The translations under genes and the position numbers were made by a program. The notes below the pieces were generated by a model, which had not been told where the DNA came from, searched no databases, and saw only the letters and a list, made by a program, of their open reading frames with translations. DNA of 23,821 nucleotides from a virus: positions 1 to 23,821 of IMG/VR virus record IMGVR_UViG_3300025570_000114; one strand, given 5' to 3'. This document shows, one piece after another, positions 9,280-23,821 of the stretch (positions are counted from its first letter, which is position 1; every line of letters begins with the position of its first letter).

Positions 9280-9644
9280 TGGGCAGACCTAAGTGGATAC
9301 CAGACGAACTAACCTGCAAGAAAGCTAAGGACATGGCTTCTAGAGGGCTTACGATCTTACAGATAGCCGATTGCCTTGGTGTAAGTCACACGACCATTTA
9401 CGAAAGACAGAACGAGTTTCCTGAGTTTGCTGAGGCTATAAAAAGGGGTAGAAGTCAAGGAATAAAAGAAGTTGCTAACGCCCTGTTTGATAAAGCTGTT
9501 GGGGGTGATACCACTTCAATGATCTTTTATCTTAAGAAAAGAGACAGAGAATCGTGGGGAGATGAGTACATTGACCCAGTAAAAGAAATCCCTCCTATCA
9601 ATATTATCGTAGACAGCAATGCAATTAACCAAGAGTCAAAGTGA
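9279..9644 (+). CDS. terS: Terminase small subunit
   Basis: The 121-residue product begins MGRPKWIP, has an N-terminal helix-turn-helix (GLTILQIADCLGVSHTTIYE, about 28-47) and the FPEFAEAIKRGRSQGIKEV helix typical of phage small terminases, then a DKAVGGDTTSMIFYLKKR segment. The small subunit recognises the packaging site on the phage genome and regulates the large subunit, which is encoded immediately downstream with a 26-base overlap. That context and the HTH make the call firm. Confidence 0.82.
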   Translation: MGRPKWIPDELTCKKAKDMASRGLTILQIADCLGVSHTTIYERQNEFPEFAEAIKRGRSQGIKEVANALFDKAVGGDTTSMIFYLKKRDRESWGDEYIDPVKEIPPINIIVDSNAINQESK

Positions 9645-10836
9645 GATATTTTGTTCTAACTCTCGCTTTCGAGTATGTGTGGGAGGCCGCAGATTTGGGA
9701 AAACCTTTCTTTCAACGGCTGAATTACTCAAAGCGGCCATTGGTGGCAAGAATAGAAACTGTTGGTATTTAGCCCCCACCTATCAGGCGGCCAAAGAAAT
9801 TGCTTGGTCTATGCTAATCGACACCATTCCAGAAGAGTACATCGTCAAGACTAATGAAACTTCTTTAACTTTGAAACTAATCAATGGATCAACGATCAGC
9901 CTTAAAGGGGCTGAAAACGCTCAGAGTTTAAGAGGAAGGGCACTAGACTTCTGCGTGCTAGATGAATTCGCAGATATGCGGCCAGAGGCATGGTATGAGG
10001 TTATACGTCCGTCACTATCTGACAGGCAGGGTTCAGCCCTATTTATCGGAACACCGAAAGGCAGAAACCACTTTTACGACTTGTGGGCATCTGGCTTAAA
10101 CAAAGAGAATGATTGGCAGAGTTTCCAATATACAACCCTACAGGGTGGTAATGTTCCTGAATCAGAGGTTGAAGCGGCTAAAATAGACTTAGATGAGCGT
10201 ACTTTTCATCAAGAATATTGTGCAGAGTTTGTTTCATATAGTGGCATTATTTACTACTCCTTTAGCCGTGAACACTCTGTCTTGGCGTGTGGCGATGATA
10301 ATGGTACACTGTTAATCGGTATGGATTTTAACATATCCCCAATGAGTGCTTGCATTGCTATACGTAAAGGCGGGAAGCTGTATATCTTTGACGAGATTTG
10401 TCTTTTTGGGTCTAATACTGACGAGATGGTTACGGAAATAAAACACCGTTACCCTAACCGTCATATAGTTGTGTTTCCAGACCCCGCATCAAGACAGCGT
10501 CGAACTTCGAGCGCAGGTGGTCGTACAGATTTGTCGATCTTACAGAACGCAGGATTTGAGGTTAAAGCCAAGAAGTCCCATGCTCTGGTTAGAGATAGAA
10601 TAAACGCAGTGAATAGCCGTTTACTGTCTAGCAGTGGTGAACGGAATTTGTTTGTTAGCCCTAAATGTAAGCAGACGATTAAGAGTTTAGAGAGACAAAC
10701 ATATAAGGAAGGAACGAGTATTCCAAACAAAGATGATGGCTACGATCATATGAACGATGCCCTTGGTTATCTTGTGGAGACGATTTTTCCTGTTCGCACA
10801 GAATACAACACACCACAACCTACTAGGTGGACTTGA
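9619..10836 (+). CDS. terL: Terminase large subunit
   Basis: The 405-residue protein has the packaging ATPase and nuclease motifs in order. They are Walker A GGRRFGKT (22-29), Walker B CVLDE (112-116), coupling motif GTP (144-146), and an RNase H-like nuclease domain with D236 (GMDFN), D288 (FPDP) and the HMND motif (377-380). It translocates DNA into the prohead and cuts the concatemer. The first ATG at 9619 lies within the small-subunit gene and lacks a strong ribosome binding site, suggesting translational coupling. It ends in a TGATGA overlap with the portal gene. Length is typical. Confidence 0.95.
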   Translation: MQLTKSQSEIFCSNSRFRVCVGGRRFGKTFLSTAELLKAAIGGKNRNCWYLAPTYQAAKEIAWSMLIDTIPEEYIVKTNETSLTLKLINGSTISLKGAENAQSLRGRALDFCVLDEFADMRPEAWYEVIRPSLSDRQGSALFIGTPKGRNHFYDLWASGLNKENDWQSFQYTTLQGGNVPESEVEAAKIDLDERTFHQEYCAEFVSYSGIIYYSFSREHSVLACGDDNGTLLIGMDFNISPMSACIAIRKGGKLYIFDEICLFGSNTDEMVTEIKHRYPNRHIVVFPDPASRQRRTSSAGGRTDLSILQNAGFEVKAKKSHALVRDRINAVNSRLLSSSGERNLFVSPKCKQTIKSLERQTYKEGTSIPNKDDGYDHMNDALGYLVETIFPVRTEYNTPQPTRWT

Positions 10837-15965: not shown

Positions 15966-16367
15966 ATGGCGACTAAAACAGGCGCATCTGGAGTAGTAAA
16001 AGTACAAGTCTCAGGCACGACTGTTGCCGTGGTAGGCGAGGTACGTTCTTTCACGTTTGACGGTTCAGCAGACACCATTGAAGATTCAGTAATGGGCGAT
16101 TCTTCTAGAACTTACAAGCAAGGCTTAAAAACTAACACAGTTTCAATCGAATGCTATTGGGATGAGGCTGATGCACAGCAGTTAATTCTTGACGAACGTG
16201 CTTCTGTAGATTTTGAAATCTATCCTACTGGCACTGGTTCAGGCGAGACTTTCTTTTCAGGCGGTGGCATTGTAACTTCTCGTTCTATCAGTGGAGCATT
16301 TGATGGAATGGTTGAAGCAAGTTTTACCATTCAGTGCAGTGGAGATGTAACCGAAGCACAAGTATAA
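15966..16367 (+). CDS. Major tail tube protein
   Basis: The 133-residue product is beta-rich: SGVVKVQVSGTTVAVVGEVR, then FTFDGSADTIEDSVMGDSSR, a YKQGLKTNTVSIECYWDEAD strand and IVTSRSISGAFDGMVEASFT. This is the arrangement of TP901-1/lambda-gpV-type tube proteins, with the W/D-rich 'cyWDe' segment and a C-terminal strand pair. It assembles into stacked hexameric rings forming the tail tube. AAAGG lies upstream at 15952-15956. Its place between terminator and chaperone genes is canonical. Confidence 0.85.
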   Translation: MATKTGASGVVKVQVSGTTVAVVGEVRSFTFDGSADTIEDSVMGDSSRTYKQGLKTNTVSIECYWDEADAQQLILDERASVDFEIYPTGTGSGETFFSGGGIVTSRSISGAFDGMVEASFTIQCSGDVTEAQV

Positions 16368-16379
16368 GGGGATTAAACC

Positions 16380-16727
16380 ATGGGATTAGCAAAAGAGTTA
16401 CGAAGCAGAAGAAAGTTATCAGCGCGAGAAGTATTAGTGCCTGAGTGGGGTGACGATTCTGGAGCATTTAAGTTATATTGCAGAAGCATTACGTGTTATG
16501 ACTTAGACCAGTTACAGAAGAAGCACCCTAACTTTTTAAACAATATGACTATCAGTGCAATGGTGGATTTGATTTGCATGAAGGCAGAGGATGAAGGCGG
16601 CACTAAGTTGTTTGCATCTGCGGAAGATAGGTTAGATTTGATGGGCGAGGAGACAAGCGTTATATCAGAAATAGCCAATCAGATGTTTGCTGAGATAGAG
16701 TCTGCTGAGGAACACGAAAAAAACTGA
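16380..16727 (+). CDS. Tail assembly chaperone gpG-like (short product)
   Basis: The 115-residue product is acidic at the C terminus, with VPEWGDDSGAFKLYCRSITC near the N terminus and a helical FLNNMTISAMVDLICMKAED. An acidic tail follows (FAEIESAEEHEKN). It sits between the tail tube and tape measure genes and ends in the slippery heptamer of a -1 frameshift signal, the hallmark of the lambda G/GT arrangement. It is expected to bind the tape measure during tail assembly and not be in the virion. Confidence 0.85.
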   Translation: MGLAKELRSRRKLSAREVLVPEWGDDSGAFKLYCRSITCYDLDQLQKKHPNFLNNMTISAMVDLICMKAEDEGGTKLFASAEDRLDLMGEETSVISEIANQMFAEIESAEEHEKN

Positions 16728-16867
16728 GAAGCGATCACTCAAGGATGACCATGTTATCTCTGGCTGATCGCCTTCACATGAGTATTGCTGAAGCGGAACA
16801 AACGCCCGTTAGTCATTTGAACGAATGGGTTGCATACCACAAAATAGTTGGCGAGAAAAATGATTAA
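16380..16867 (+). CDS. Tail assembly chaperone gpGT-like, made by -1 frameshift
   Basis: A -1 shift at AAAAAAC (16718-16724) bypasses the TGA at 16725 and adds 47 codons ending at TAA 16865-16867, giving 162 residues. The added part includes LADRLHMSIAEAEQTPVSHL and NEWVAYHKIVGEKND, which resemble the T part of GT chaperones (Trp-containing helix, charged end). In lambda, G and GT are made in a fixed ratio and both are needed for tail assembly, GT bridging to tail tube protein. The tape measure start (16860) overlaps its end. An independent start at ATG 16751 is an alternative. Confidence 0.8.
16718..16775 (+). promoter_or_regulatory. Programmed -1 ribosomal frameshift site with stimulatory stem
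   Basis: The slippery heptamer A AAA AAC is in the correct zero frame (gaA AAA AAC tga). After a 6-nt spacer, GCGATCA (16731-16737) pairs perfectly with TGATCGC (16765-16771). Three more pairs are possible (GAA 16728-16730 with TTC 16773-16775) across one bulged C. The loop is 27 nt. Confidence 0.85.
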
Positions 16868-18701
16868 CCCTATTAAAATTGCTATTGCAGGTCTCGATAA
16901 CACAGAAGCAGTATTTGCGGCAGTACAAAAAAGGTTTAGGAAACTTTCTGCAACTATCGACAAGGTTAAAAACCGATTTCCTTTATTAAGTGCATCATTC
17001 GCAAAGGTTGGCGGTTTTCTTAAAAGCGCAATATCTACTATTGTCAAAAGTGCATTAGCGATGGGGGCGGCCTTCACGGTTGCCTTATCCGCTATCACTA
17101 TCAAAACTATGTCTTCTATAGATGCATTAGGGAAGATGTCATCTAAGATAGGAACAACGGCAGGGTCACTTGCTAAACTCCAATTTGCCGCAGAGCAGAC
17201 AGGCGTATCTGCTGAAACTATGGGTATGGCAATGCAACGCTTTACTCGTAGGGCGGCAGAAGCGGCTAGAGGTACAGGCGAGGCTAAAGGTGCATTGAAA
17301 GAACTAAATCTAAGCGCGGCTGAATTAATTAAGATGCCGTTAGAAGATCAAGTTCTTGCTCTTTCTAAATCATTTGACAAAGTAGAAACATCTGCTGACA
17401 AAGTTAGATTGGCTATGAAGCTGTTTGACTCTGAAGGTGTTGCGCTTGTAAACACTTTAGGCGCAGGTTCTGATGGCTTACAGGCAATGTTTAGTGATGC
17501 TGAAGCATTGGGTCTAGTTTTATCCGAGGACGCAGTAGACGGTGTAGAAGCCGCTAATGACTCCATGAATCGTCTTAAGACATTGTTTGTTGGATTTAGC
17601 CGACAAGCCGTTGCCGCGTTTGCTCCTGCAATAGACGAGATAGCAAAATCATTAACTGAACTTGGTTTGAAAGCCGCTGATGGCGATGTTCAGAATATTG
17701 GTGAAGTAATTGCAAAGTCTATTGTCGACGGTCTGGTTTCTGTTTTGGAAGTCATACAGAAAATGATGAATGCGTTTGGTGAGATGGCGCACGAAATCAA
17801 AAAAATATATAGAAACTTTTTCCCAAGCAAGGAAATGGAAGCTGACAAAAAACGCTTAAACGATTTGTTCAGTACGCCTATTGAAGACATTAATTTATTT
17901 TCAGATAAGCAATATGAACTATTTGAAGCAGAAATTGCGGCACTAAAAAACAAGATTGCAGGAGAAGAAGGCGATTTTATACCTTTTGATTTTTCAGAAT
18001 TAATTGCAGGTCTTGTGAGAGTTAAAGACGCTATCGGTGTAGTCGGTGAAGCGGTTGAGCCAGTAATAGATGAGATCGCGACATTAGGGGAAGGTAACTG
18101 GTTTGAAAAACTTATTGGCTCTGCATTAGATTTTAAAGATATAGCAAGTGTAGCTTTTGGAAGGGTTGCAGATCAAGTATTTGACTTTGATAGCGCAATG
18201 AATTCATTAGTTACTGGCTCTATTGATGCAATGGTTCAGGGTTTTTCTGACATGATGACAGGTGCTAAGAGTTTTGGTAACGCTATGAAGGATATGGCAA
18301 AAACCGTTATTGATGCTTTAATGAAAATGTACATTAAATATATGATTGTTCAGCCGCTGTTTGACATGATGTTTCCAAATGCAAGAGCAGGGGAAGATGT
18401 GCCAGCAGGCAAAGCATTAGGCGGCCCAGTGCAGGCTAATACTCCTTATCTTGTAGGTGAGCGTGGCCCAGAACTATTTATGCCTAACTCTGGCGGTAAC
18501 ATTATTCCAAATAACAAAATGGGTGGCGGTAGCAGTAGTGTAGTAGTACAGCAGACTATCAACGTGACTACAGGCGTACAGCAAACCGTACGTGCTGAGA
18601 TCGTTCAGTTAATGCCTCAGATAGCCCAAGCCGCTAAAGGTGCTGTTGCAGACGCTAGGTTGCGCGGTGGTAACTTCTCTAAAGCAATGGGAGGCGCATA
18701 A
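16860..18701 (+). CDS. Tail tape measure protein
   Basis: The start is ATG 16860; a TTG four codons earlier is less likely. The 613-residue product has a basic N terminus (KIAIAGLDNTEAVFAAVQKR), a hydrophobic segment (about 66-84: IVKSALAMGAAFTVALSAIT), and a tape-measure-like LAKLQFAAEQTGVSAETMGM / MQRFTRRAAEAARGTGEAKG region. Helical and hydrophobic parts follow in the C-terminal half, then the C-terminal VGERGPELFMPNSGGNIIPN typical of tape measures. It sets tail length, roughly 90 nm if 0.15 nm per residue applies, and is released into the host with DNA. It overlaps the end of the GT frame. Confidence 0.9.
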   Translation: MINPIKIAIAGLDNTEAVFAAVQKRFRKLSATIDKVKNRFPLLSASFAKVGGFLKSAISTIVKSALAMGAAFTVALSAITIKTMSSIDALGKMSSKIGTTAGSLAKLQFAAEQTGVSAETMGMAMQRFTRRAAEAARGTGEAKGALKELNLSAAELIKMPLEDQVLALSKSFDKVETSADKVRLAMKLFDSEGVALVNTLGAGSDGLQAMFSDAEALGLVLSEDAVDGVEAANDSMNRLKTLFVGFSRQAVAAFAPAIDEIAKSLTELGLKAADGDVQNIGEVIAKSIVDGLVSVLEVIQKMMNAFGEMAHEIKKIYRNFFPSKEMEADKKRLNDLFSTPIEDINLFSDKQYELFEAEIAALKNKIAGEEGDFIPFDFSELIAGLVRVKDAIGVVGEAVEPVIDEIATLGEGNWFEKLIGSALDFKDIASVAFGRVADQVFDFDSAMNSLVTGSIDAMVQGFSDMMTGAKSFGNAMKDMAKTVIDALMKMYIKYMIVQPLFDMMFPNARAGEDVPAGKALGGPVQANTPYLVGERGPELFMPNSGGNIIPNNKMGGGSSSVVVQQTINVTTGVQQTVRAEIVQLMPQIAQAAKGAVADARLRGGNFSKAMGGA

Positions 18702-19261: not shown

Positions 19262-20055
19262 GTAGAACACTTACTACCTCTATGCGTGATGCGCTTGTCG
19301 CTGATACGGTTCGACCTATCTACCTAGTACGCATGGTATTTGACCAAAATATTGCGGCAGGTACTTTTGTTACAGGACACAAGTATAAAATAGTCAGTGT
19401 TGGTAATACTGATTTTACAGCTATTGGGGCAAGTGCAAACACGGTTGGTGTGACCTTTACTGCTACTGGTGCAGGTTCAGGAACTGGAATTGCAAGTGAA
19501 AGCCCTGCTGAATTAAACCTATGGTCTGGTGTTGGCGATCTTTCTTATGATGGCGAGACCTATCTTGGTGTTGGCGATTTGCTAGGCATAAGTGAAATCA
19601 AAGAAAGTGCTGACATCTCAGCGACAGGAATGAACATTAGTCTTACAGGTGTTAAATCATCTTTAGTATCTGTGGCAAAAGATCACGAATATCAAGGCAG
19701 ACCATTGACGGTTCACCTTGGCGCGTTTGATACATCTGGCTCTTTAGTTGCTGACCCTATCATTATCTTTTCTGGCTTTATGGATACCATGACTATTGCC
19801 GAAGCAGGGGAATACTCAACTATATCGATTGCAGTGGAAAACAAACTTATCGCTTTTGAGAAAACAAAAATAAGACGATATACAGCAGAAGATCAGAAGA
19901 TTGAACATCCTACAGACAAAGGTTTTGAGTTTGTAACCGCCATTGTAGAGAAAGAAATCATCTGGGGTAGGCCAACAGGTTCAACTGGTGGCAGTTCAGG
20001 AGGCTCTGGCGTTAATGGTGGTGCAGGTAATAATGGTAGTTGGAATACAGCTTGA
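19258..20055 (+). CDS. DUF2163-like tail hub protein with inserted domain
   Basis: The start is ATG 19258 (GGAGG at 19249-19253; overlaps the upstream stop). The 265-residue product resembles DUF2163-type baseplate/hub proteins: RPIYLVRMVFD at the start, then ELNLWSGVGDLSYDGETYLG, ISEIKESADISATGMNISL, IIIFSGFMDTMTIAEAGEYS and RRYTAEDQ. Between the first two lies a 50-residue insertion (31-80, 19348-19497) of a separate module: KYKIVSVGNTDFTAIGASAN then FTATGAGSGTG. That module is seen in diverse phage proteins. The C terminus is an unusual Gly/Ser/Asn-rich tail (from about residue 238). Confidence 0.75.
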   Translation: MSRTLTTSMRDALVADTVRPIYLVRMVFDQNIAAGTFVTGHKYKIVSVGNTDFTAIGASANTVGVTFTATGAGSGTGIASESPAELNLWSGVGDLSYDGETYLGVGDLLGISEIKESADISATGMNISLTGVKSSLVSVAKDHEYQGRPLTVHLGAFDTSGSLVADPIIIFSGFMDTMTIAEAGEYSTISIAVENKLIAFEKTKIRRYTAEDQKIEHPTDKGFEFVTAIVEKEIIWGRPTGSTGGSSGGSGVNGGAGNNGSWNTA

Positions 20056-20507
20056 TAATTGCTCACGAATGTCTAGCCAATGTTAAGCAAGATATTCTGC
20101 CGCTTTTAGAAAAGCACTGGCTAGAAACAGAACCAAACCAAGAAACAATTTTGCTTAATCCAGATTGGGAGCAGTATGCCTTGTTAGATTTAGCAGGGAT
20201 TTTGCATATTTTTACAGCGCGTAACGAAGGAATCCTTGTTGGATATTTGGTAATGATGGTTTCAAAAAGCATCCACCATAAAGACCACTTATTCGGTTCT
20301 ACTGATGTTATTTACGTTAAGCCTGAGTATCGCAAAACACATACTGGTGCAGATTTAATTAAGTTTGCAGAATCACATTGTAAAGAAAATGAAGTTTCTT
20401 TGATGACTCTTAACATGAAGGTAGAATTTCCATTTGATCGGCTAATGACTACAATGGGGTTTAATCTTCTTGAGCGTGTATATCACAAATGTTTTTTAGG
20501 AAAATAA
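20052..20507 (+). CDS. GNAT-family N-acetyltransferase
   Basis: The start chosen is TTG 20052, which overlaps the upstream stop (TTGA); a TTG four codons earlier is possible and neither has a strong ribosome binding site. The product is about 151 residues. Its core ILVGYLVMMVSKS, then FGSTDVIYVKPEYRKTHTGADLI, with a helix after the pantetheine loop, fits GNAT motif A. MTTMGFNLLERVYHKCF is the usual last strand. Phage GNATs are frequent near tail or internal virion genes; substrates are unknown, and host or virion protein modification is possible. It sits where many siphoviruses place an NlpC/P60 tail peptidase. Confidence 0.8.
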   Translation: MIIAHECLANVKQDILPLLEKHWLETEPNQETILLNPDWEQYALLDLAGILHIFTARNEGILVGYLVMMVSKSIHHKDHLFGSTDVIYVKPEYRKTHTGADLIKFAESHCKENEVSLMTLNMKVEFPFDRLMTTMGFNLLERVYHKCFLGK

Positions 20508-20508
20508 A

Positions 20509-23500
20509 ATGGCAACAGTAGTCGTAGCAGGGTTAAGTGCCGCAATAGGATCAGCGGCCGCAGGATTAACTATCTTTGGTCTTGCGGCAACTAGTCTTGC
20601 AGGATTTGCCGCGGCTTTTGCTCTTGGAGCAGGACTTAGCTTAGTCTCGCGCGCATTAATGCCTAAGCCTGATCTTGGCGCTCAGATGGCAGGTCAGTCT
20701 GTAATGACTAGAGAGGCGGCTCATTCTCGCAAGATTATTTATGGTCGTGCGCGTATTGGTGGCAATGTTGTTTACTTAGAGTCTACTGGAGATGATAACA
20801 AATACCTTTGGCTTGTAATTGCTGTTGCAGGGCATGAGATTGATGCCTATGAACAGGTCTGGTTCAACGACAAAAAGATTTGGGATGGTGGCTCATATGT
20901 TAGTGATTGGGGGTCGTATGTATCAATCAGTTTTAAAGACGGTTCTCAAACAACAGCAGATTCAGGACTAGTTGCCGCATCTACTAAGTGGACATCTAAT
21001 CATAAGCTACTGGATACCGCTTACATGGTGGTCAAGCTAACCTATGACCAAGAGCAATTTGCCCAAGGTCTGCCAAATATCTCTACCGTAGTTCGCGGCA
21101 AAAAGGTTTGGCATCCAAGCCACTCATCGCCTGTATGGTCGCAAAACCCTGCGCTCTGTGTAAGGGATTACCTGACTGATACCAAATACGGTTTAGGCGA
21201 ATCATCATCTAATATTGCTTCTATTAATACTGCTTTGGGGGTGTGTGATGAAGCTGTCGATCTAGCGGCAGGTGGAACGCAACCGCGCTACACATTAGAT
21301 GGAGTTATTGATACTGGTAACTCTATAAAAGCAAATATCGAAAACATGGTAGGTTCTATGATTGGCCGCTTGGTTTATTCTGGCGGTAAGTTTGAGATTC
21401 ATGCAGGTGAATACGTTGCTCCTACGGTGACGATTGATGAGTCAATGATGATCGGTGAAATTAGTGTTCAGACTAAACAGTCAAGACGCAGTGCCTACAA
21501 TGGCGTTAAGGGAGTTTTTTTAAGCGAAGAAGATAATTACATCCTCGCTGATTACCCTGCTCAAATATCCTCTACCTATGCCGCTCAAGATGGTGATCCA
21601 ATATATTTGGATATGCCTCTGCCATATACCGTAAATAATGTACGCGCTCAGAGGATCGCACAACTCGCTCTAAGGCGATCTAGGCAACAGGAATCTATTA
21701 CTATTCCCTGCAACTTAAACGCGCTTAAATTCAAAGTAGGGGACAATATAAGCGTTACAAACACACGCCTTGGGTATTCTGCCAAGGTGTTTGAAGTTGT
21801 TGGCTACTCGATGGGCTTTAGTTCCGATCAAATGGTTGTCAACGTAGACGCTATTGAAACAGCATCTTCTATTTGGTCTTGGGATGAAGATGAAGAAGTA
21901 TTCTTAGGTGCAGGTGAAGTTGATATTTATGACGGAACAAGCACTACTGCCCCTGCGAGTATTTCTGTTACAGCGGATACTTTTATATCATCGGACGGAA
22001 CATCTAGTGCTTCTTTTGATGTTAGTTGGCCTAACTCTGTTGATGCGTTTGTAGATCATTATGTCGTAGAGTGGAAAGTATCTACGGATAGTTCTTATTT
22101 TTCTCAGTCCACAAAGACTTCCCCTCTACAGATTGTTGGTTTAGACCCTAGCAAAACTTATAACGTAAGAGTGAAAGCAGTAAATGGGTTAGCGGTATCT
22201 AGTAGTTATGTAAGCGCACAAGCAGTTCCTGCAACTGACACCACTGCTCCCAATGCTCCAACGTCTGTTAATGCTAAAAATGAATTTGAGCAAATTACTA
22301 TTTCGTGGGTTAATCCAACCGCAAAAGATTTTGAAATTGTGTTTATTTATGGATCAAATTCTGGAACAAGTGGTTTTACAAAAATAGGAGAAAGCAGAGG
22401 GACTACATTTACAGAGCCTGAACTTGGAACTGGTGTTACTAGATATTACAAGTTAAAGGCATTGGATAAAACTGGCAATGCGTCTAATTATAGTAGCGTT
22501 GATAGTGCTACTACTACTCAAGTTCCTGTCGGTGGCATTGCTAATGATGCTGTTGATACCGATCAGATTGCTGATGATGCTGTTGATACAGGCCAGATTG
22601 CAGATGAAGCTGTTGAAATTAATCAAATTGCCGCTACATTGCAATCAACAAATTATTCTTCTGGTTCATCAGGTTGGAAAATACAAAAAAGCGGTGCGGT
22701 TGAATTTGAAGAAGCAACGATTCGCGGAGAGATTACTGCTAATACTGGAGTCATAGGCGGCTTTACAGTTGGGTCTGATTCATTAATTGCAGGGGCTAAC
22801 GCAACAAGAGTCTCTTTAAGCACTGCTGATGGTATTCATCTTGGTCATAATACGTTTGCTTCTGCGCCTTTTAGAGTAGATAGAGCAGGCGCTTTGACTG
22901 CAACAAGTGCAACAATTACAGGCGCGTTGACCCTAACCAATGTCGATGGGACTACAGTTGAGTATAGTGGTGGCAATCTTCAAGTTGGAACCGTTCAAAC
23001 AGCAAACATTGCTAACGATGCAATTACTAACGCTCAAATTGCCGTTGATGCTATTCAGGGTGACGTTATAGCCGCAGGAGCTATTGTTACAACAATGTTG
23101 GGCGTTGATGCTGTAACCAGTGCAAAGATTGCCGACAATGCAGTTTTGACAGCGGCTATTGCGGCTGATGCTGTTACAACAGTTAATATTGCAAATGACG
23201 CAATTACTACGGCTTTAATTGCAGATAATGCTGTAACCAGTGCTGTTATTGCCGCAGGTGCGATTACTTCTACAGAACTGGGCGTTGATGCAGTTACTAG
23301 TGCCAAGATAGCAGACAATGCGGTCACAGCGGCACAAATAGGTGCGGACGCAGTTACCACAGCCAAAATAGCTGACGATGCAGTGACTAATGCGTTAATT
23401 GCTACTGATGCGGTGAATGGTGATTCTATTGCGGCTAACAGCGTTACTGCCTCATCTATTGTTGCAGGAACCATTACTGCTAGTGAATTGGCCGCTGATT

Positions 23501-23821
23501 CCGTTACTGCTTCTCAAATAGCCGCAGGGTCGGTTACAGCAAGTGAGATTGCCGCAAATACTATTACAGCAAGTCAAATAGCCGCAGACGCTATAACTGC
23601 AAATGAGATTGCCGCAGACGCAGTAACAGCAGATGCAATAGCCGCAAATACTATTACAGCCGCAGAAATAGCCGCCAATACTGTTACCGCTTCTGAAATA
23701 GCCGCTGATGCAATTACCGCAGATGAAATAGCCGCCAATGCCGTAACCGCAAGTGCTATTGCCGCAAACACAATTACTGCTTCAGAGATTGCCGCTAATG
23801 CTATAGGTGCAAATGAAATAG
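20509..23821 (+). CDS. Tail-tip host-specificity protein, gpJ-like (3' truncated by window)
   Basis: The start is ATG 20509 with TTAGGA at 20496-20501. At least 1,104 codons are open to the window edge. The N terminus is hydrophobic and Ala/Gly rich (VVVAGLSAAIGSAAAGLTIF), then the tail-attachment part with REAAHSRKIIYGRARIGG, NPALCVRDYLTDTKYGLG (about 221-238) and RRSRQQESITIPC. Two fibronectin type III domains follow (about 481-577 and 582-672), then three decapeptide repeats (680-709) and a WKIQKSGAVEFEEATIRG region (about 723-740). A further module leads to an uninterrupted decapeptide array from residue 827 on. It should form the tail tip that contacts the receptor. Confidence 0.88.
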   Translation, partial: MATVVVAGLSAAIGSAAAGLTIFGLAATSLAGFAAAFALGAGLSLVSRALMPKPDLGAQMAGQSVMTREAAHSRKIIYGRARIGGNVVYLESTGDDNKYLWLVIAVAGHEIDAYEQVWFNDKKIWDGGSYVSDWGSYVSISFKDGSQTTADSGLVAASTKWTSNHKLLDTAYMVVKLTYDQEQFAQGLPNISTVVRGKKVWHPSHSSPVWSQNPALCVRDYLTDTKYGLGESSSNIASINTALGVCDEAVDLAAGGTQPRYTLDGVIDTGNSIKANIENMVGSMIGRLVYSGGKFEIHAGEYVAPTVTIDESMMIGEISVQTKQSRRSAYNGVKGVFLSEEDNYILADYPAQISSTYAAQDGDPIYLDMPLPYTVNNVRAQRIAQLALRRSRQQESITIPCNLNALKFKVGDNISVTNTRLGYSAKVFEVVGYSMGFSSDQMVVNVDAIETASSIWSWDEDEEVFLGAGEVDIYDGTSTTAPASISVTADTFISSDGTSSASFDVSWPNSVDAFVDHYVVEWKVSTDSSYFSQSTKTSPLQIVGLDPSKTYNVRVKAVNGLAVSSSYVSAQAVPATDTTAPNAPTSVNAKNEFEQITISWVNPTAKDFEIVFIYGSNSGTSGFTKIGESRGTTFTEPELGTGVTRYYKLKALDKTGNASNYSSVDSATTTQVPVGGIANDAVDTDQIADDAVDTGQIADEAVEINQIAATLQSTNYSSGSSGWKIQKSGAVEFEEATIRGEITANTGVIGGFTVGSDSLIAGANATRVSLSTADGIHLGHNTFASAPFRVDRAGALTATSATITGALTLTNVDGTTVEYSGGNLQVGTVQTANIANDAITNAQIAVDAIQGDVIAAGAIVTTMLGVDAVTSAKIADNAVLTAAIAADAVTTVNIANDAITTALIADNAVTSAVIAAGAITSTELGVDAVTSAKIADNAVTAAQIGADAVTTAKIADDAVTNALIATDAVNGDSIAANSVTASSIVAGTITASELAADSVTASQIAAGSVTASEIAANTITASQIAADAITANEIAADAVTADAIAANTITAAEIAANTVTASEIAADAITADEIAANAVTASAIAANTITASEIAANAIGANEI
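22546..22635 (+). repeat. Minor decapeptide repeat block (3 units)
   Basis: Three in-frame 30-bp units encode DAVDTDQIAD, DAVDTGQIAD and EAVEINQIAA, related to the longer array at 22987. Confidence 0.85.
22987..23821 (+). repeat. Decapeptide (30-bp) repeat array in tail-tip gene
   Basis: About 28 consecutive in-frame units of 10 residues follow the pattern (D/N/G)(A/S/T)(I/V)T-x-x-x-I-A-(A/D), e.g. DAVTSAKIAD, NTITASEIAA. There is no indel of other length within the window, and the array continues to the window end. The later units (from about 23440) are much more uniform, with IAA at each end. Confidence 0.92.

Follow-up and report, generated by a model that had tools for sequence, protein, structure and literature searches.

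The frameshift that produces the tail assembly chaperone has long been known from phage lambda, where the genes follow the order tube, G, T and tape measure, and where a low-level -1 shift adds to G the T domain, a member of phrog_337. We looked at a candidate for such a frameshift in an uncultured virus record of 23,821 nucleotides (IMG/VR IMGVR_UViG_3300025570_000114; this whole 23.8-kb stretch is called the window below), belonging to a marine phage of bacteria. Frameshifting between G and T is widely conserved among long-tailed phages (PMC5009743). It is also described for the g-t genes of the haloarchaeal viruses HCTV-1, HCTV-2 and HCTV-5, with G_GGA_AAC as the slippery heptamer in HCTV-1 and A_AAA_AAC in HCTV-2 (PMC5009743); both heptamers found in the present group have thus been named for the same gene, although the hosts of the HCTV viruses are archaeal. 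In Acinetobacter phage vB_AbaS_Loki, gp12/gp13 is annotated as a frameshift fusion with AAAAAAC right before the gp12 stop (PMC5313236), a position we also saw in its sequence, but Loki has a chaperone of another family and a longer second part. The first-pass annotation of the window, made from the sequence alone, had rightly distinguished AAAAAAC from the classic lambda site, but these precedents exist. The present site is a well-supported case of the known tail-chaperone frameshift type, using heptamers already described. It differs from lambda in that the shift is placed directly at the G stop, T has only 47 codons, and a Shine-Dalgarno (SD)-like element and a hairpin flank the site. What is unusual is only the complete three-part signal, made of the SD-like element, the heptamer and a covarying hairpin.

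We predict with high confidence that this locus carries a -1 ribosomal frameshift making a gpGT tail assembly chaperone. It is composed of the following elements.

16380-16727, + strand: gpG-like tail assembly chaperone, 0 frame, 115 amino acids (phrog_344; AlphaFold model compared with HK97 2ob9)
16707-16710, + strand: SD-like GAGG, putative 5' stimulator (GAG codon conservation; anti-SD match)
16718-16724, + strand: slippery heptamer A_AAA_AAC (A_AAA_AAC or G_GGA_AAC in all distinct junctions of relatives)
16725-16727, + strand: gpG stop codon TGA, TAA or TGA in relatives (sequence and junctions of relatives)
16728-16775, + strand: downstream stem-loop with its core at 16731-16771, putative 3' stimulator (folding energy, synonymous recodings, covariation)
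16724-16867, + strand: gpT-like T extension in the -1 frame, 47 codons and TAA (phrog_337; dN/dS in the -1 frame)

Most ribosomes would terminate at 16725 and release gpG, while a minority would be paused by the downstream hairpin, a pause to which base pairing between 16S rRNA and the GAGG upstream may add. On A_AAA_AAC the Lys and Asn tRNAs would re-pair one base back, and translation would proceed in the T frame. The predicted gpGT product consists of G ending in ...EHEKN fused to LRSDHSRMTMLSLADRLHM...GEKND and, by analogy with lambda, G may coat the tape measure protein and T recruit the tail tube protein.

The final codons of gpG are GAA AAA AAC TGA, and the heptamer stands in the correct X_XXY_YYZ phase, abutting the stop codon, exactly where the first-pass annotation had placed it. 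The rarity of the heptamer was rejected as evidence by itself, since the window has AAAAAAC at 13 places where about 8 would be expected, which is not significant. The genes of the window contain 22 other in-frame X_XXY_YYZ heptamers, of which not one abuts a stop codon. It is the combination of signals and their conservation that goes beyond chance, not the heptamer alone. This conservation was followed in relatives found by scanning viral contigs and phage records, which yielded 247 loci carrying a G homologue, with 117 distinct junctions among them. These include the cultured roseophages CRP-821, CRP-811 and CRP-406, with a G identity of 37-43% in the alignment, and the pelagiphages HTVC026P and HTVC202P (34-36%). 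A_AAA_AAC or G_GGA_AAC was found directly before TAA or TGA in 117/117 distinct junctions, and the heptamer, the stop position and the open -1 frame, whose conservation the first-pass annotation had left to an alignment of relatives, were kept throughout. Within the window clade, 49 distinct genes had AAAAAAC and 39 had GGGAAAC, corresponding to about three switches between AAA and GGG on the G-gene tree, with no intermediates seen. An independent pattern scan, which required AAACTRA and some of the LADRL codon bases but put no constraint on XXX, returned 80 places, and every one that was read had AAA or GGG. Two-tRNA slippage requires XXX to be kept identical, as it is when A_AAA_AAC is replaced as a block by G_GGA_AAC.

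The same block replacement bears on another way of obtaining the fusion, in which RNA polymerase would slip on the A run and generate a mixed pool of mRNAs read by standard translation. The window does contain seven consecutive A (16717-16723), and the runs are longer in the pelagiphages. However, the bacterial cases are described on runs of about nine A or T (PMC5009743), and the GGG replacement breaks the run, so that 39 of the 88 clade members, those with GGGAAAC, have no run over three. Furthermore, a conserved hairpin and a strict codon phase are instead expected of ribosomal slippage, and we regard transcriptional slippage as highly improbable. A homopolymer at the junction could also suggest that an A lost or gained in sequencing or assembly has split one continuous G-T gene. 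The 247 loci, which come from many metagenomes and also include cultured complete genomes and GGGAAAC versions, share this relation between the frames; their number and variety exclude an assembly error.

Two other sequences of this kind were noticed. A further in-frame heptamer, T_TTT_TTA, lies at 20492-20498 of the window, in a gene (20040-20507) whose stop codon follows 6 nt later, and is probably due to chance. In roseophage CRP-821 (L082, 1816-1845 and about 1965-1987), the stretch leading up to the start of the tape measure gene, GAGGAACGCGAAAAAAATGG, is closely similar to the phage's own slippery site, GAGGAACATGAAAAAAACTAA.

The -1 frame is open from 16724 over 47 codons to a TAA at 16865-16867, as the first-pass annotation had read it. 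In the junctions of all relatives it stays open for 47-56 codons, except in four where the contig ends inside the frame. Among 48 distinct T regions, variable columns were distributed over the -1 codon positions as 22, 16 and 42 of 46 each, and the median dN/dS in this frame was 0.115. The T region has zero stops in the -1 frame versus 2-6 in the other two frames. This pattern of substitutions indicates that the T frame encodes a protein under purifying selection. Moreover, 43 of 45 diverse T domains from relatives matched phrog_337, which lambda gpT matches too (4.7e-7), and this agrees with the lambda-type G/GT chaperone shift proposed at first. In the deposited genomes of CRP-821, CRP-811, CRP-406, HTVC026P and HTVC202P (L082-L086), only gpG is annotated and the T extension is missing from the annotation; frameshifting is not mentioned in the paper on the roseophage family (PMC12629253).

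Alternatively, T could be a small gene in its own right, initiated at the ATG at 16745 or 16751. The AAGG at 16741-16744 would then serve as its ribosome-binding site, and the heptamer would be incidental. AAGGA indeed stands 5 nt before the ATG at 16751, a plausible SD spacing, but this ATG is present in only 6/38 distinct close relatives, and that at 16745, present in 35/38 of them, is found in only 20/56 and 7/38 more distant ones. The conservation of the T frame also extends upstream of both ATGs to the first codon past the heptamer: the conserved T residues start right there, with L1 invariant and R7 near-invariant. Both ATGs and the AAGG lie within the hairpin, and a separate gene leaves the replacement of AAA by GGG unexplained. 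We therefore consider separate initiation of T very unlikely. For the same reasons, namely the scarcity of the ATG at 16751 in close relatives and the absence of that at 16745 from most distant ones, the earlier suggestion of an effect of the stem on initiation at these ATGs is weak.

Upstream of the heptamer, the predicted frameshift site has an SD-like element that was overlooked in the first-pass annotation. The Glu codon located six codons before the gpG stop is GAG in 150/151 distinct genes, whereas most other conserved Glu codons in G mix GAA and GAG. This codon forms a GAGG 7 nt upstream of the heptamer, which is the strongest internal anti-SD match in the G gene of the clade. In E. coli, A_AAA_AAC is far less shift-prone than A_AAA_AAG (PMC5009743), and for this reason the present heptamer would need help of the SD-like kind. 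GAGG is thus a putative frameshift stimulator, and its conservation fits what is expected of a selected upstream SD of the dnaX type.

Downstream, GCGATCA (16731-16737) and TGATCGC (16765-16771) are exact reverse complements that start 6 nt past the heptamer and can be extended by GAA/TTC. These features of the stem were correctly seen at first, but its proposed length of 10 bp was too short, as the entire element folds into one hairpin of 48 nt with -21.4 kcal/mol (z -2.95 versus dinucleotide shuffles). When compared with synonymous recodings that keep the T protein, 40/40 distinct close relatives folded better (mean z -3.4). The same comparison on 71 junctions found by pattern gave a mean z of -2.9, with 97% below -1, in a set that is somewhat biased because the pattern fixed part of the 3' arm while leaving the 5' arm, 16765 and 16771 free. 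We then counted pairs in 94 distinct sequences. The 15-pair stem 16731-16771 was paired in 88.9% of cells, as against at most 45% when slid, and its covariation score was 0.261 versus 0.147 in shuffles that are not corrected for relatedness (0/500 as high) and at most 0.10 in slid controls, which do account for it. The covarying pairs were 16731/16771 (GC, CG, AU), 16737/16765 (AU, CG, UA) and 16745/16757. RNAalifold on close relatives only gave a weak consensus, because the position of a mismatch differs between sequences, and pair counting on the wider set settled the stem. The stem is thus conserved, with covariation, both within the window clade and across a broad range of other phages, and the recodings indicate that the hairpin is under synonymous selection in the window clade and in the 71 pattern-found junctions. 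With both the -1 frame and the stem kept in relatives, the first-pass reading of a -1 frameshift signal is supported. No match was obtained when the window was searched against Rfam.

In the window clade, exactly one mismatch is present among four neighbouring stem pairs (16734-16738 with 16764-16768) in 38/38 distinct stems. It sits at one of four places, varying between relatives, although the T protein would permit a perfect stem in them. One extra clade member has an unbroken stem with a G-U pair, and perfect stems occur in other clades. This single wandering mismatch may reflect a tuning of stem strength. The layout as a whole is like that of E. coli dnaX, with an upstream SD-like element, an A_AAA_AA(Z) heptamer and a downstream stem-loop. 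The dnaX gene is however unrelated, its Z is G and not C, and its shift shortens the product; there the SD and the heptamer are separated by about 10 nt, versus 7 nt here.

As for gpG itself, it matched the tail assembly chaperone family phrog_344 (E 7e-5). An AlphaFold model was built from 41 relatives, and its best match in the PDB was the HK97 tail assembly chaperone 2ob9 (TM 0.53), followed by YqbN, with nothing else close. The model suggests with moderate confidence that gpG has a tail assembly chaperone fold, independently of the sequence signals. Neither G nor T matched a Pfam family above cut-off, and a search of the PDB by sequence alone gave no credible relative.

Several points weigh against the prediction of a gpGT frameshift. 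The slippage, its rate and the roles of both stimulators are what we infer, and the signal, its conservation, the coding of T and the homology of G and T are what was observed. Since A_AAA_AAC is weak in E. coli (PMC5009743), frameshifting could be very infrequent. Both pelagiphages lack the SD-like element, and the roseophage branch has no general hairpin (mean z -0.6), so the hairpin would act as a stimulator in only some of these phages and is not required in all of them. Finally, the match to HK97 stands on its probability (0.98) and not on its E-value (0.06), and the model has a mean pLDDT of 69.

The locus lies in a tail module whose genes run from the tail terminator through the tail tube, G, T and the tape measure to the distal tail protein. 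As in G/GT-type loci, the tube and tape measure genes thus enclose two frames that overlap or adjoin each other, and the end of the T frame overlaps the tape measure start codon, an ATG at 16860. The two flanking genes are as follows.

15966-16367, + strand: major tail (tube) protein gene, in the position of lambda V (Pfam PF16460 and PF06199 above cut-off; phrog_10528 major tail protein)
16860-18701, + strand: tape measure protein gene (Pfam Tape_meas_lam_C, phrog_9483; ATG overlapping the end of the T frame)

Elsewhere in the window, the terminase large subunit (9619-10836) is closest to that of pelagiphages (52-53% identity) and the G gene is closest to that of roseophages, which points to a mosaic ancestry. 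The 3' part of a tail protein gene (about 22450-23820) carries a long degenerate run of ITA/EIAA-type repeats that continues past the window end. Prophage relatives were sought in bacterial and archaeal genomes, with only two matches, both in metagenome bins, which pointed to no named host.

Altogether, these results leave the known frameshift mechanism unchanged and correct the annotation of an abundant phage group, marine and other, whose deposited genomes show gpG without the T extension. More tentatively, and with some doubt, it is possible that a large group of phages, most of them uncultured, drives the tail chaperone shift with a cassette of three parts resembling that of dnaX. Such a cassette would retain a weak C-ending heptamer whose XXX alternates between AAA and GGG and no other triplet, and would maintain its stem close to a fixed strength, so that the G:GT ratio would be tuned by stem stability. 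The heptamers and hairpins of this group form a natural series of variants that may be used to study how phages set the G:GT ratio needed in tail assembly.
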